Origin: Nitrososphaerota archaeon
GTDB taxonomy: Archaea > Thermoproteota > Nitrososphaeria > Nitrososphaerales > Nitrosopumilaceae
Assembly (NCBI GenBank): GCA_028866895.1
Contig: JAGWHF010000015.1
Location: forward strand, 1-34,425
Direction: 5' to 3'
Length of the DNA: 34,425 nt
Shown: piece by piece, positions 7,996 to 32,708 of the stretch
How the letters are laid out: every line of letters begins with the position of its first letter
Numbering within the stretch: the stretch's first letter is position 1
Translations under genes and position numbers: made by a program
Notes under the pieces: generated by a model
Seen by the model: the letters and a program-made list of their open reading frames with translations, nothing else
The model's database searches: none
Told to the model about the DNA's origin: nothing

Positions 7996-8484
7996 TCAGC
8001 ATCCCTGAAACCTTCTAGAAAGAAGCTCGTTTAGTCTCCGAATCTGATCCTTCTTGTGTTCTATATCTTCAAGCAGATCATGCCTGAGCCTCATGAGCAG
8101 CATGTTTGCTGTATCCATCACCTCTCCAATATCGTAAGGCTTGTAGATTATGGCGGATGCGCCAAGATCAAGAAGCCTTCTCCTCGTCTCGTCCCGATTG
8201 TCTGATGTTACCACTATTATCAGGGCATCAGGCTCGATCCTCCTTATCATCTCAACTGCCAGAAAGCCTCCACCCTTGCTCATCAGTACGTCTAGGAATA
8301 CAATGTCGGGCCTGAGGTCTGCATATGAGAGGACCGCATCATTGCCATCACGTGCCTTCCCCACCACTGTGATGCCCTTTAGCTCCAAAAATTCTGACAG
8401 CACATCGGCCGTATCGGCATCATCGTCTACCACCAAAGCAGTAGCATCTGCCATGTCCCTCCTGTCCCGATCCTGTAATGGCAT
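7996..8484 (-). CDS. stand-alone response-regulator receiver protein
   Basis: A 162-aa protein made of one CheY-like receiver: acidic pocket D20-D21 (VVDDDAD), phosphoacceptor D65 (IVFLDVL), switch T93 (VVTSD) and K115 (IYKPYD). A ~40-residue helical tail rich in Arg/Glu (RLRHDLLEDIEHKKDQIRR) could be a coiled coil for dimer or partner binding. There is no DNA-binding or enzymatic output domain. A soluble histidine kinase is encoded at 12196 but not adjacent, so pairing is speculative. The start at 8484 is supported by a TAAAATAT box centred about 26 nt upstream; an internal ATG ten codons later has a good GGAGG sequence and is an alternative. Confidence 0.85.
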   Translation of the reverse strand: MPLQDRDRRDMADATALVVDDDADTADVLSEFLELKGITVVGKARDGNDAVLSYADLRPDIVFLDVLMSKGGGFLAVEMIRRIEPDALIIVVTSDNRDETRRRLLDLGASAIIYKPYDIGEVMDTANMLLMRLRHDLLEDIEHKKDQIRRLNELLSRRFQGC

Positions 8485-12118: not shown

Positions 12119-12195
12119 CCCCCAAAAATCATGTTGAAGACCGCAAGATCTTCGATATGATATGTTTTTATTTAGATTGCAAGGAACTAGACCGC

Positions 12196-13137
12196 TTGCC
12201 TATATTCATTGACTGCCACATGGCATCGGGAATTACTCGGGAGCGCCTTGAAACTTTCGGCAATTTCTCCGAGGGCAGGAATGGCGTAAGACCGCTTGAG
12301 ATTTTCTACAACGAGGCAGAGAACGTGGCATACTGCATCCTAGAGGCCCAGAACATCGAGGCAGTCTCGGAATATCACAGGAGGGAGGGCCTGACGTGCA
12401 AGTTCGTCACGGAGGTGGACGAGATCAAGACTGAAAGAATCAGGGTGTCCGAGAAGCTGCAGATACTGGGAGAACTGAGCTCCATGGTTAGCCACGACCT
12501 GAGGACTCCCGTAAGCATAATAAAAAACTCGATAGATATCATTAACCTAAAGTTCAAGGGCGAGATGCCTAAAGAGATGGAGGACTACCTCCAAAAGATG
12601 GACAGGGCAGCCACGTCAATAATAACAATGGTAGAGGACATTGTCAACTTCGCAAGGACGACCCCTCTTAGAATACAGAACCAGCGCCTCCTACCAGTAA
12701 TCCGAAGGTCGATAGAATCCGTCCAAATCCCAGACAACATAAAACTCACAATACAGCAAAACCACGTCGCATTCGACTTTGATGCGGGCAAGCTAGAGGT
12801 GCTCTTTAACAACCTCATTACCAATGCAATCCACGCGATAGGCAGCACTGATGGAGAAGTCTCAGTCACTTTTGGAGAGAGGGACGAGGATCATGTAGAG
12901 ATACGCGTCCAAGACTCAGGACCGGGGATCCCGGAAACCGTGCTGCCGATGATATTTGAGCCGCTGTTTACCACCAAGCAGCACGGTACCGGACTTGGAC
13001 TGCCAAGCTGCAAGAACATAGTGGAACAGCACGGTGGAACAATCTTCGCAACAAACAATCCCACCACAATTACGGTAGTTTTCCCAAAGCGGCAGAAGGA
13101 GGGAACCCCGGAAAGCCTCGGGGTCAAAATTAAGTGA
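12196..13137 (+). CDS. soluble histidine kinase with N-terminal DUF4242-like domain
   Basis: A 313-aa protein. Residues 1-76 (PIFIDCHMA, VRPLEIFYNEAENVAYCILEAQNIEAVSEYHRREG, then a terminal strand) match the DUF4242 pattern, a small ferredoxin-like fold; some bacterial members bind nickel. Residues about 86-160 form a HisKA helix pair with phospho-acceptor H100 (SHDLRTP). The HATPase domain has the N box (NNLITNAIHA, 205-214), G1 (DSGPGIP), F box (FEPLFTTK) and G2 (GTGLGL). There is no membrane helix, so the signal is cytoplasmic. Start TTG 12196 begins exactly at the domain edge, and a TTTTTATTTA box (12165-12174) lies 26 nt upstream. No response regulator is adjacent; the lone receiver at 7996-8484 is a possible partner. 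Confidence 0.85.
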   Translation: MPIFIDCHMASGITRERLETFGNFSEGRNGVRPLEIFYNEAENVAYCILEAQNIEAVSEYHRREGLTCKFVTEVDEIKTERIRVSEKLQILGELSSMVSHDLRTPVSIIKNSIDIINLKFKGEMPKEMEDYLQKMDRAATSIITMVEDIVNFARTTPLRIQNQRLLPVIRRSIESVQIPDNIKLTIQQNHVAFDFDAGKLEVLFNNLITNAIHAIGSTDGEVSVTFGERDEDHVEIRVQDSGPGIPETVLPMIFEPLFTTKQHGTGLGLPSCKNIVEQHGGTIFATNNPTTITVVFPKRQKEGTPESLGVKIK

Positions 13138-14648: not shown

Positions 14649-15062
14649 ATGGCGGGACTTTTCAGCAAGAAAAAGGCCTCATGCGCCCTCTGCAAGAAGG
14701 AGATCACGCACACCCACAAGCCAAAGCGCTCGTGGAAGGTGGAAGGCTCCCTCTGCGCTGACTGCTACCTTGACTTGCTGGAGAAGAACTTTGAGGATGA
14801 CCCTGAAGACAGGTGCGCTGTTTGTTCTGCCGAACCCGGTTCGTTTAATCTCTGGAGGCCGAAAAAGGGATGGGGGGTGAAGGGGTTCCTATGCAAGTCA
14901 TGTTTTGAGGAAAGGGAGAGGGAGGATGATGATCTAAGGAATTCTTGCTGCCAATGCGGCTCAAGTACGGGGATTTTTCCTCGGCGCGCCAAAGAAGAAT
15001 GGGGTATGAAGGGGTTTCTGTGCAGGCAATGCTGGAAGAACGCGCAGTCTAGGCAGCCATGA
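14649..15062 (+). CDS. protein with three tandem treble-clef-like zinc fingers
   Basis: A 137-aa protein built from three ~45-residue repeats, each with C-x2-C, a basic linker, a Trp and a Gly, then LC-x2-C. The pairs are CALC/CADC, CAVC/CKSC and CCQC/CRQC, with the shared core W-GVKGFLC or W-MKGFLC. All twelve Cys are present, so three zinc sites are expected. Linkers are Lys/Arg-rich, suggesting nucleic-acid or ribosome contact, but function is unknown. It is divergent from the glycosyltransferase and its 3' end overlaps the convergent two-TM gene by 14 bp. Confidence 0.72.
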   Translation: MAGLFSKKKASCALCKKEITHTHKPKRSWKVEGSLCADCYLDLLEKNFEDDPEDRCAVCSAEPGSFNLWRPKKGWGVKGFLCKSCFEEREREDDDLRNSCCQCGSSTGIFPRRAKEEWGMKGFLCRQCWKNAQSRQP

Positions 15063-15962: not shown

Positions 15963-17333
15963 ATGAAAAATTTCATAGGGTTTGATCCCATGGAGTTCTG
16001 CGAGGCCTGCTTTCAGAGGCAGAAGACTGTCCTCTGCGAGACCTACAAGGACACCTTTGCAAAGATAACCTCGATTCACTTCTCACAGCAGGCAAAGCTT
16101 GACAGGCTGCTCAACCGACTGGGCTTGCTTCCCCGGATGGTGGAGAGACGCTGGACATGCTCCGTCGGGCCTGAAACAAGGAAGGAGTTTCTTGACTCCC
16201 TGTGGGGTATAGGAATAACAGTCCACACGCTTGAGGACCACCTCAAGATCCTGTCGCGCCTTTACAGGCCGGATGTCCGTCCACTTGGCGAGAAGCTGGC
16301 GGTAGACCTGCCTGCCCAGGGCCTGTGGGAGGAGTTTGATCCAAAGGGCAGGTCGTGGGTCCCACTGGGGGCAATAGGTGGAAACGGCAAATCCTCAACC
16401 GAAGCACGCCTCGGGAACATTCTGAGGAATTCTGGCATCGAGGGGACGAGCTACTTTAGAGCCAACAAGGATGGGGATGCCGTGGCGGCCATCCCGATGG
16501 AGAGGCGCGCAGCGCTCAACATAGCATCCACCATCTCGGAACCAACCTCAGTAACTTGGAAGGCCGATGCGCATGGTGGCCGGGCCGTAATTGATCTCAA
16601 GGATCTGGAGGTGATCCCAGACGAGATCATGAACTTTCTAAAAAGACTGGGAAAGAAGGACAAAAAGTTTGCCGGATTGATAATATTTGAGAACGAGGAC
16701 ATGAGCATGGTCTCTGGGGCACTAGGTTGCATCAAGGTAAGCCTTACCAAGTCCGATGATACAGTTGACCTGGGGGCATCAGGCAGAGCCGACGAACCAG
16801 TTCCGGTCGGTACGATACAGGAGGAAAGGCTTTCCGCCTTTCTTGACGTGATAAAGGAAATTGGCGGCACTGCAGTCTCCACCAAAGACGCGATTGTCAT
16901 ATCGGGAAGCCGCGGCTCTGCTACAGTCACCTTCACGGACAATGACCGGAGCATACAGGATGGTACGTCCATCCAGGTCTCCGCCTCAGCACTGGAAGAT
17001 CCACAGAGATGCTCCGAAGTGCTCTCAACAATGAGGAAGAAGGTGGGACTTCTTGACGTCTCGCTTGACGCCCTTCTTGCATCTCGATGGCCGGTGCTAA
17101 ATGACACTGACTTGCAATACGTAGTCCAGTCGGCAATATCATGGTACGGGTCAAATCCTGCCCTTGCCCAGAAGATAATAGGGGGGCCAGACAAACTTCC
17201 AAAGATCAGGGACTGGCATTCCAGGATAAAAAAAGGGGAGATTAGGTCGGCCCTAGACACTGTCACACTTGGAAAGATAATCAAGCGGCTGGAGGGTGGA
17301 GGAATACAGGCCGCAGCCCGGAAGACCGCCTGA
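15963..17333 (+). CDS. hypothetical cytoplasmic protein (456 aa)
   Basis: Not recognised. No signal peptide or membrane helix is visible. The N-terminus has clustered Cys (C13, C16, C25) that could bind metal. Residues 60-200 are mixed helical with a GAIGGNGKSSTEARLGNIL segment that looks loop-like but is not a proper Walker A. Two regions resemble repeated alpha/beta units: about 195-260 (TSVTWKADAHGGRAVIDLKD, then FAGLIIFENEDMSMVSGALG) and about 295-345 (AFLDVIKEIGGTAVSTKDAI, then ATVTFTDNDRSIQDG). The C-terminal ~100 residues are helical. ATG 15963 has an AAGATAAAG box about 35 nt upstream. Codon use matches neighbours, so a resident gene is likely. Confidence 0.75.
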   Translation: MKNFIGFDPMEFCEACFQRQKTVLCETYKDTFAKITSIHFSQQAKLDRLLNRLGLLPRMVERRWTCSVGPETRKEFLDSLWGIGITVHTLEDHLKILSRLYRPDVRPLGEKLAVDLPAQGLWEEFDPKGRSWVPLGAIGGNGKSSTEARLGNILRNSGIEGTSYFRANKDGDAVAAIPMERRAALNIASTISEPTSVTWKADAHGGRAVIDLKDLEVIPDEIMNFLKRLGKKDKKFAGLIIFENEDMSMVSGALGCIKVSLTKSDDTVDLGASGRADEPVPVGTIQEERLSAFLDVIKEIGGTAVSTKDAIVISGSRGSATVTFTDNDRSIQDGTSIQVSASALEDPQRCSEVLSTMRKKVGLLDVSLDALLASRWPVLNDTDLQYVVQSAISWYGSNPALAQKIIGGPDKLPKIRDWHSRIKKGEIRSALDTVTLGKIIKRLEGGGIQAAARKTA

Positions 17334-19039: not shown

Positions 19040-19052
19040 AATTGCTTATATA
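19040..19052 (+). promoter_or_regulatory. TATA promoter shared with the second PEFG gene
   Basis: AATTGCTTATATA occurs here and identically at 31729-31741, 23-26 nt upstream of the starts of two paralogous surface-protein genes. An A/T-rich dyad ACTAAA-T-TTTAGT (about 19027-19039) precedes this copy. Confidence 0.6.
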
Positions 19053-19074
19053 CTGGCAAGAAAACTCGTGTGTA

Positions 19075-20172
19075 GTGAAAATTAGCGCCAAAGGACTTGC
19101 ATTATTAGGCATATTGATCATTGCAACAGGCGTGGTCCCGGCATTTGCCGATACCAATTCTACAAACAGTACAAACTCAACAACGGTATCTGCAGGATCG
19201 GCACCTGCAAACTCCAGTTCGGCCACCAACTCTTCGGTCCAAGTCGCCCAGCCGGCAGCAGGTACCGGCCACCCGGCGACACCGTCACAAACAGGCTCGT
19301 ATGTTGGGACAAACAACCCTGCCACCAATGCAAGGGAACTTCTTGCAAACCAGAGCACCGCCAACCTTACCCCGCCGCCCTACTTGGTTACAAATGCAAC
19401 TGGAAATTCCAGCCAGATAGTGAGCATGGGAACCTCCGCACCCGCCGTGACTGTTACCACGGATAAGACCTCTTACAATGATGGGGACAAGATAGTAATC
19501 TCGGGTACCACGAAAGATTACCTGGGCGACACTCCTCTTACTCTTATACTTAGAAATCCTGACGGGAACGTCGTAAGCATCAACCAAGTACAGATAAATC
19601 CAGACAAGACCTACTCGATAAGCCTGACTGCCGGTGGTGCGCTTTGGCAGGCCGCGGGAAGCTACTCAGTTTATGTCCAATTCGGCGGACCTGACAGATC
19701 TGCAACGACAAAATTCCAGTTCTCAGGATCACACATTGCAGGAAATACCATCATGGTTGACGGCACAAACTCATCCGTAACTTATACCATAACAAACGGC
19801 AAGGTTACGGACATAAAGGCTGACACGATTTCAAAATCATTGATAGTGACGATACAGACCACGGGTGACGGCAACCTTACGATAACAATGCCAAGGGCCT
19901 TGATTGATGCCAAAAAGTCCGACGGTACTGACGACGTGTACTTTGTACTAAATGACGGACAGGAGAACGACCAGTTCGAAGAGATAAAGAACACCACTAC
20001 GGAAAGGACCCTTCAGATCCCGTTCACCGACGGTACATCCCAAATTGAGATAATTGGAACCTTTGTAGTGCCGGAGTTTGGCGCCATGGCAGCCGTCGTG
20101 CTGGTAGTTGCGATAATTGTCATAATCGCAATCTCAAGCAAGAATGGGCTGCGAATCCAGCCAAGGACCTGA
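19075..20172 (+). CDS. PEFG-anchored surface glycoprotein, paralogue 1
   Basis: A 365-aa exported protein. Signal peptide at about 1-25 (LALLGILIIATGVVPAFA), then a Ser/Thr/Asn-rich linker with many N-x-S/T sequons (about 27-110), a beta-sandwich module starting AVTVTTDKTSYNDGDKI (about 125-215), a second beta-rich module (TNSSVTYTITNGKVTDIKAD and on) and a C-terminal PEFG motif at residues 333-336 followed by a hydrophobic helix and basic tail (SSKNGLRIQPR). This tripartite tail is the PEFG-CTERM sorting signal handled by an archaeosortase-type enzyme. The start is GTG at 19075, leaderless from the TATA box at 19045-19052. A close paralogue lies at 31764. Confidence 0.85.
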   Translation: MKISAKGLALLGILIIATGVVPAFADTNSTNSTNSTTVSAGSAPANSSSATNSSVQVAQPAAGTGHPATPSQTGSYVGTNNPATNARELLANQSTANLTPPPYLVTNATGNSSQIVSMGTSAPAVTVTTDKTSYNDGDKIVISGTTKDYLGDTPLTLILRNPDGNVVSINQVQINPDKTYSISLTAGGALWQAAGSYSVYVQFGGPDRSATTKFQFSGSHIAGNTIMVDGTNSSVTYTITNGKVTDIKADTISKSLIVTIQTTGDGNLTITMPRALIDAKKSDGTDDVYFVLNDGQENDQFEEIKNTTTERTLQIPFTDGTSQIEIIGTFVVPEFGAMAAVVLVVAIIVIIAISSKNGLRIQPRT

Positions 20173-31763: not shown

Positions 31764-32708
31764 ATGAGTAATAAATTTGCCGGACTTTTGTTACTTGTAA
31801 TAATTTTCGGTTCTGTGGCAGCCATCCCTGCCTTTGCCGCCACAAACCAGACATCGGGCCAGTCCATGGCATCCTCTGTTGGGAATACGACTGTTCCAGC
31901 AAATCTGCCACCGCCCTCTTACATGCTTAACGCCAACAGCAGCTCGATTCCTGGCATGCCGTCAACGAACCTTCCGGCAGTCACAGTTACCACTGACAAA
32001 TCATCCTATAACGACGGCGACAAAATTACCATCTTGGGAACCACGCGCGACTACATGCCTGACACGCCACTTACGGTAGAAGTGAGGAACCCCGTAGGGA
32101 ACATCATAAAGGTGGACCAGATTCAGGTGGCTAGCGACAAGACATATTCGACCTCAATGACTGCCACCGGATTGCTCTGGTCGGCGGCAGGGACATATAC
32201 TGTGTCAGTCCAGTACGGCAGTCCGGACAGGTCTGCCAAGACCACATTCAGCTTCTCGGGTGCAGCCCCGGCGGGGCCAAGCACTATATCAGTGGACGGA
32301 ACCAATTCATCTGTTACTTATACGATAACCAACGGGAAGGTCATTGACATAAAGGCAAACCCGCAGTCAAAATCACTTATCGTATCTATACAGACAACGG
32401 GCAACGGCCTCCTGACAATCACAATGCCTAGGGCTCTCATTGACGCAAAGAAATCTGACGGCACAGACGACCAGTTCATAGTACTAAACGACGGCCAGCA
32501 GAACAGCCAGGCCAACGAGACCCTTACGACTAGCACCGAGAGGACCTTGGCCATCCCGTTCAAGAATGGAACCTCGCAGATAGAGATAGTCGGAACGTTT
32601 GTGATTCCAGAGTTCGGTCCTGTGGCCGCGCTTGTACTGGCAATCGCAATCGTATCGATAATTGCAATTTCTAGGAGGAACAACCTCCGGTTGCTCCCAA
32701 GATATTAG
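31764..32708 (+). CDS. PEFG-anchored surface glycoprotein, paralogue 2
   Basis: A 314-aa exported protein highly similar to the one at 19075: signal peptide (about 1-25, ending AFA), shorter sequon-containing linker, beta module AVTVTTDKSSYNDGDKI, second module TNSSVTYTITNGKVIDIKAN, the nearly invariant TMPRALIDAKKSDGTDD, and a C-terminal PEFG at 282-285 with membrane helix and basic tail (SRRNNLRLLPRY). It is probably displayed on the cell surface after archaeosortase processing. The main difference from its paralogue is a ~50-residue shorter N-terminal linker. Start and promoter match those of the paralogue. Confidence 0.86.
   Translation: MSNKFAGLLLLVIIFGSVAAIPAFAATNQTSGQSMASSVGNTTVPANLPPPSYMLNANSSSIPGMPSTNLPAVTVTTDKSSYNDGDKITILGTTRDYMPDTPLTVEVRNPVGNIIKVDQIQVASDKTYSTSMTATGLLWSAAGTYTVSVQYGSPDRSAKTTFSFSGAAPAGPSTISVDGTNSSVTYTITNGKVIDIKANPQSKSLIVSIQTTGNGLLTITMPRALIDAKKSDGTDDQFIVLNDGQQNSQANETLTTSTERTLAIPFKNGTSQIEIVGTFVIPEFGPVAALVLAIAIVSIIAISRRNNLRLLPRY

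Follow-up and report, generated by a model that had tools for sequence, protein, structure and literature searches.

The fused kinase gene and its product

The window, by which we mean the entire 34,425-nucleotide stretch analysed here, carries a gene for a sensor histidine kinase in which a small PF14026 domain (SCO4226-like, formerly DUF4242 in Pfam) precedes HisKA and HATPase_c domains (Table 1). Archaeal amoA is present in the genome and in each of seven relatives checked for it, so the host is an ammonia-oxidising archaeon. With hmmscan, PF14026 is found at residues 5-74 of the product (31.0 bits against a gathering cut-off of 28.5, E 3e-7), the match spanning profile positions 2-76 of 76, and is followed by HisKA (39.9 bits) and HATPase_c (89 bits). 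PF14026 scores are higher among the orthologues, reaching about 48 bits, and the window copy is thus a divergent member of the family and not a chance match. The catalytic motifs of a HisKA kinase are all intact - SHDLRTP, NNLITNA, DSGPGIP (G1), EPLFTT and GTGLGL (G2) - and the 313-residue product has no membrane-spanning segment, its 19-residue Kyte-Doolittle mean peaking at 0.83. A first-pass annotation of this DNA had read residues 1-76 as a DUF4242 domain, fused to HisKA/HATPase in a soluble cytoplasmic kinase, and on all three points the profile and motif searches agree with it.

Table 1. Features of the window and of the related loci discussed in the text. Conservation was counted over 89 PF14026 rows, leaving out 78 Streptomyces-type rows; because the rows share ancestry and in a few cases one locus supplies two stand-alone rows, percentages are counts and not independent events.
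Feature	Position	Strand	Remarks
Response regulator, receiver the only Pfam match	7996..8484	-	PF00072, 76.9 bits
TATA-like element TTTTTATTTA, putative promoter	12165..12174	+	T/A-rich block, same distance in nearly all 28 fusion genes
PF14026-HisKA-HATPase_c sensor histidine kinase, 313 aa, TTG start	12196..13137	+	
PF14026 ferredoxin-like input domain, residues 1-74	12196..12417	+	Pfam match, model, best match 4oi6
Conserved Asp6 and His8, FxDxH motif on strand 1	12211..12219	+	Asp 89%, His 92% of 89 rows
Conserved Cys47, strand 3 (Cys51 of SCO4226)	12334..12336	+	99% of 89 rows
Conserved His61, helix 2 (His65 of SCO4226)	12376..12378	+	89% of 89 rows
Cys68	12397..12399	+	28/28 fusions, 25/29 stand-alone archaeal domains
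Short signalling linker	12418..12465	+	Modelled helix 80-119 runs from here into DHp
HisKA (DHp) domain, residues 91-155	12466..12660	+	Pfam; predicted phospho-acceptor His100
Predicted phospho-acceptor His100 in SHDLRTP	12493-12495	+	Sequence motif
HATPase_c domain, residues 196-299	12781..13092	+	N, G1, F and G2 boxes
PF14026-class III adenylate/guanylate cyclase fusion	L185 2125-3594	reverse-strand frame	Actinobacterial
PF14026-class III adenylate/guanylate cyclase fusion	L188:2484-3302		Actinobacterial
PF14026/PLD-like/KaiC-cyclase/ParA cluster	L062:4972-8601, L065:2177-6499, L067:4987-9028, L216, L218, L219, L221		

An AlphaFold model of the full-length protein, built from 39 input sequences, predicts a ferredoxin-like domain and then a helix (residues 80-119) that enters the DHp domain, the DHp helix beginning almost immediately after the last PF14026 strand (pTM 0.60; pLDDT mostly 83-92 over the domain blocks, but 71 at residues 21-30). 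Many orthologues have an 'IKT' motif in this linker. Modelled alone, residues 1-84 reach a mean pLDDT of 86, and the elements are b1 3-9, a1 15-21, b2 31-39, b3 44-50, a2 54-63 and b4 68-74. Foldseek ranks SCO4226 (4oi6) first for residues 1-84 (TM 0.72/0.74), and by VIA-align no other match exceeds Z 8: SCO4226 scores Z 10.2, with an rmsd of 2.9 over 77 residues and 26% identity, and the next match Z 7.5. The window domain thus has the fold of SCO4226 from Streptomyces coelicolor (4oi3/4oi6), but the latter is a stand-alone protein of 82 residues, and where it has a fifth strand, swapped in the dimer, the window protein is predicted to have a helix leading into the kinase. A HMA/copper-chaperone domain, also considered for this fold, was rejected as there is no MT/HCXXC motif, strand 1 being IFIDCHM, and no CXXC in residues 1-84.

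Over residues 66-297 the kinase core of Thermotoga ThkA (3a0r) and of LOV-FixL chimeras (8a3u, 4gcz) aligns with the window protein. Like ThkA-like soluble HisKA-type kinases, the window protein has an N-terminal cytosolic input domain and a helix into the DHp bundle, but that input domain is PF14026 rather than PAS or LOV. The kinase part is ordinary; what we regard as new is the input domain that it carries.

Translation start and promoter

Mechanically, the open reading frame begins at GTG 11929 and has 402 residues, of which the first 89 are not common to relatives. In an alignment, 27 homologues have ATG, GTG or TTG exactly at the residue that aligns with the window TTG at 12196. The centre of the element TTTTTATTTA lies about 26 bases before this TTG, and a T/A-rich element is present at about -31 to -24 in nearly all of the 28 fusion genes, window included; across these 28 upstream regions, the AT content reaches 0.93 at -30 to -28, compared to 0.62-0.76 further upstream. 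Such spacing is what would be expected of a leaderless archaeal transcript made from a promoter of its own. The TTG start, which had been proposed from the domain edge and the TATA spacing, is therefore right and the 402-residue frame too long, and TTTTTATTTA is, on sequence and position, the probable promoter of a leaderless transcript.

Distribution and history of the fusion

A protein search of 250 genomes of the window's family recovered about 40 fusion frames of at least 299 residues in 38 genomes; short stand-alone PF14026 frames are a minority there. To judge by content, this family (f1) resembles Nitrosopumilaceae. The fusion occurs in at least five genera (g1, g2, g3, g7 and g10), all within this family. 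When 200 genomes of the class were searched for PF14026, frames of some 300 residues or more were likewise restricted to the window's family, the other families having short frames of roughly 60-120 residues, and extending the sample to the phylum revealed no fusion outside the family and added only short frames. The fusions are 28 to 59% identical to the window protein, and in an alignment of 28 of them, window included, conservation extends over the full length. PF14026-HisKA-HATPase_c is a real, conserved kinase architecture.

The kinase domains of the fusions fall into several clades, and the kinase tree requires five changes of the fusion label; for a single fusion clade, the AU test gave p = 0.057 with all fusions and p = 0.114 when the long-branched L057 was omitted, neither of which rejects it. 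Separately, a second, weak PF14026-like frame (20 bits) stands directly before a 249-residue kinase frame in genome G083 (L059:4900-5959), perhaps a split or decayed fusion.

The architecture is apparently undescribed, as had been suspected when the fusion was first noted. We found no kinase fusion, characterised or otherwise, described for DUF4242 in the open-access literature, to which our search was confined; of the three papers there that use the term DUF4242, one deals with the family itself and none with a kinase fusion, and PF14026/DUF4242 is not named in the accessible parts of either the 2018 census of archaeal two-component systems (PMC5847659) or a 2019 review of the signals of archaeal kinases. 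Almost nothing is known of what the histidine kinases of ammonia-oxidising archaea sense, and a soluble kinase of 313 residues with a small input domain, from a family with a crystal structure, is unusually tractable.

A conserved set of residues in the input domain

Four residues - Asp6, His8, Cys47 and His61 - are conserved across fused, stand-alone and bacterial PF14026 members. The window has all four, which is the family-residue criterion derived in this analysis; SCO4226 has the equivalent Asp6, His8, Cys51 and His65, as do 78 of 78 Streptomyces-type rows. At the position of Cys68, actinobacteria usually have Ala. The set is not absolute: Asp6 is replaced by Ala in four of the 28 fusions and His61 by Tyr or Leu in four, and the L057 fusion is without both Asp6 and His8. 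From the strand order of the fold, Asp6 and Cys47 would face the helices on neighbouring strands, and His8, His61 and Cys68 would lie at one end of the domain. The Asp-His-Cys-His set may have a metal or redox role.

PF14026 in other signalling contexts

Our bacterial survey covered 198 genomes of the phylum of SCO4226 plus 24 plasmid places. With a 51-residue SCO4226 fragment as query, matches came almost only from Streptomyces and close kin. PF14026 (64 and 69 bits) is fused to a class III cyclase (PF00211) in two of the 198 actinobacterial genomes (L185 and L188). In both fusions PF14026 is N-terminal, as in the window, and Asp6, His8, the Cys and the His are kept, but the output is a cyclase and Cys68 is absent, whereas the window protein has a kinase output and Cys68. 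These two are the only long actinobacterial frames read that have a second signalling domain; other long frames of GC-rich actinobacteria (e.g. L193, L194) resembled fusions but were rejected, as they seem to arise by overlap or chance.

Of 24 archaeal loci with a stand-alone PF14026 gene, 11 have it directly beside a free-standing, kinase-type PLD-like sensory module, and in eight of these 11 the neighbourhood further includes ParA and a gene for a KaiC-like ATPase-cyclase or a cyclase. The 11 loci belong to Nitrososphaeraceae-like genomes (family f3, its name inferred from gene content) and to one member of the window's family, and the PLD-like module is related to the sensory half of local histidine kinases. 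Kinases of this PLD-like type in ammonia-oxidising archaea (e.g. L234, L237, L240) come from the window's lineage and share with the window protein a soluble N-terminal module and a HisKA/HATPase-type core, as read from sequence motifs, but their input module is unrelated (about 360 residues, PLD-like half). In Streptomyces, the SCO4226 gene adjoins phoU-phoR-phoP and falls with these genes under oxidative stress (PMC4991794). Taken together, the cyclase fusions and the stand-alone copies beside a kinase-type module, KaiC-cyclase and ParA support PF14026 as a cytosolic input domain.

As a separate observation, the cluster of stand-alone PF14026, PLD-like module, KaiC-like ATPase-cyclase and ParA-like ATPase that recurs in Nitrososphaeraceae-like genomes looks like an undescribed signalling module.

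A probable sensor role for the soluble kinase, and alternatives

On balance, we think it probable that the protein is a soluble sensor kinase in which a cytoplasmic metal, redox or small-molecule signal acts at the conserved set and is relayed to a receiver encoded elsewhere. The sensor part of this reading draws on the intact catalytic motifs, the fold match to SCO4226, the short link to DHp and the lack of a transmembrane segment, as well as on the full-length conservation, the Asp/His/Cys/His set, the cyclase fusions and the PLD-like neighbours. By analogy with SCO4226, the PF14026 domain probably forms a face-to-face dimer, and in the model only a very short helical linker would separate it from the DHp dimer. 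A metal ion, redox-active species or small molecule would bind or modify Asp6, His8, Cys47 and His61, together with Cys68 in archaea, and the resulting shift of the dimer would turn ATP-dependent phosphorylation of His100 on or off. The phosphoryl group would then pass to a response regulator whose gene lies elsewhere; these archaea have many stand-alone receivers, and one of them would be the likeliest acceptor.

The relay step is suggested by two orthologues (L048 and L057) that have a receiver gene immediately upstream in the same orientation, and by the abundance of stand-alone receivers, which make up about three quarters of thaumarchaeal response regulators according to the 2018 census (PMC5847659). 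The fused kinases are mostly orphans. No receiver gene adjoins the kinase in the window; the nearest that we noticed lies 3.7 kb away on the other strand (7996..8484), and to name it as the partner would be a guess.

A special case of the sensor reading, in which Cys47 and Cys68, with His8 and His61, react with an oxidant or coordinate a soft metal, for example Cu(I) or Zn(II), strikes us as rather unlikely. Cys47 is present in 27 and Cys68 in all 28 of the fusions, and ammonia oxidisers are copper-dependent, both of which would suit a redox or thiol sensor. There is, however, no CXXC motif, and Cys47 is on strand 3 and Cys68 on strand 4, which are not neighbours in the ferredoxin-like fold. 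A joint response of the SCO4226 gene and phoRP to oxidative stress has been reported (PMC4991794), but in place of Cys68 SCO4226 itself has Ala, as actinobacterial members usually do.

We are similarly doubtful that the domain serves only for dimerisation or docking, with a bound partner protein setting the kinase. This would accord with SCO4226 being a stable strand-swapped dimer (PMC4186839), and the ParA, KaiC-cyclase and PLD-like genes next to stand-alone PF14026 genes make it conceivable that several proteins form a signalling complex. Against it, conservation is strongest at His, Asp and Cys residues and not at interface hydrophobics.

A nickel sensor, whose domain would bind Ni(II) as SCO4226 does and whose kinase would control nickel uptake, storage or detoxification, is very unlikely. 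Membership of PF14026 and the shared fold would allow it, and for SCO4226 nickel is both a ligand and an inducer (PMC4186839). The Ni-1 ligands Asp43, Ser46 and His76 of that protein (PMC4186839), however, align with Asn39, Glu42 and Thr72 in the window, and with the other crystal side-chain ligands (His3, His12, His20, His23, Glu38 and Glu74; PMC4186839) also missing, none of the nine is kept; neither is His76 among the residues common to the fusions, and we noticed no nickel gene beside the orthologues. Moreover, SCO4226 binds Ni(II) with a Kd of about 10 uM, at solvent-exposed sites of which two are common to neighbouring dimers in the crystal (PMC4186839), so that the crystal nickel sites may not be the biological ones. 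The first-pass idea of a metal sensor, prompted by nickel binding in some DUF4242 proteins, is therefore not supported for nickel sites of the SCO4226 type, through which, to judge by the alignment, the kinase is not likely to sense nickel.

An artefact of assembly or annotation, in which two neighbouring genes are read as one, has virtually no chance of being correct. In its favour are the divergence of the window copy (31 bits) and the separate PF14026 protein of 78-100 residues found elsewhere in the class, but it is refuted by 27 aligned homologues from five genera, which have one uninterrupted architecture with the same order and start.

Returning to the sensor kinase, we tentatively extend this reading to the family as a whole, though we would not yet bet on it. 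PF14026 may serve generally as a cytosolic input domain and have an Asp-His-Cys-His site of its own, used on kinases in ammonia-oxidising archaea, on cyclases in actinobacteria and in trans with KaiC-cyclase, ParA and PLD-like proteins in Nitrososphaeraceae-like genomes, and the ligand of the family, SCO4226 included, might not be the surface nickel of the crystal. The fused kinase also recasts a family annotated as 'nickel-binding': PF14026 becomes a probable signalling domain in which four residues can be named for testing.

Gene neighbourhoods

The neighbourhoods of the fusions are conserved only among close relatives, and for this reason we name no pathway. Two window genes, one for a small cysteine-rich protein (14649-15062) and one for a 456-residue protein with no Pfam match (15963-17333), also lie beside the fused kinase in the relative L036 and may therefore be linked to it. 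In one subclade of the window's genus (L032, L033, L035, L037 and L038), DUF6659-like genes flank the fused kinase on both sides, and another such gene is found near the fused kinase in L044 (7336-7701). Elsewhere in the window, 19042-20172 and 31764-32708, 11 kb apart, code for paralogous secreted proteins with a PEFG-type C-terminal anchor.
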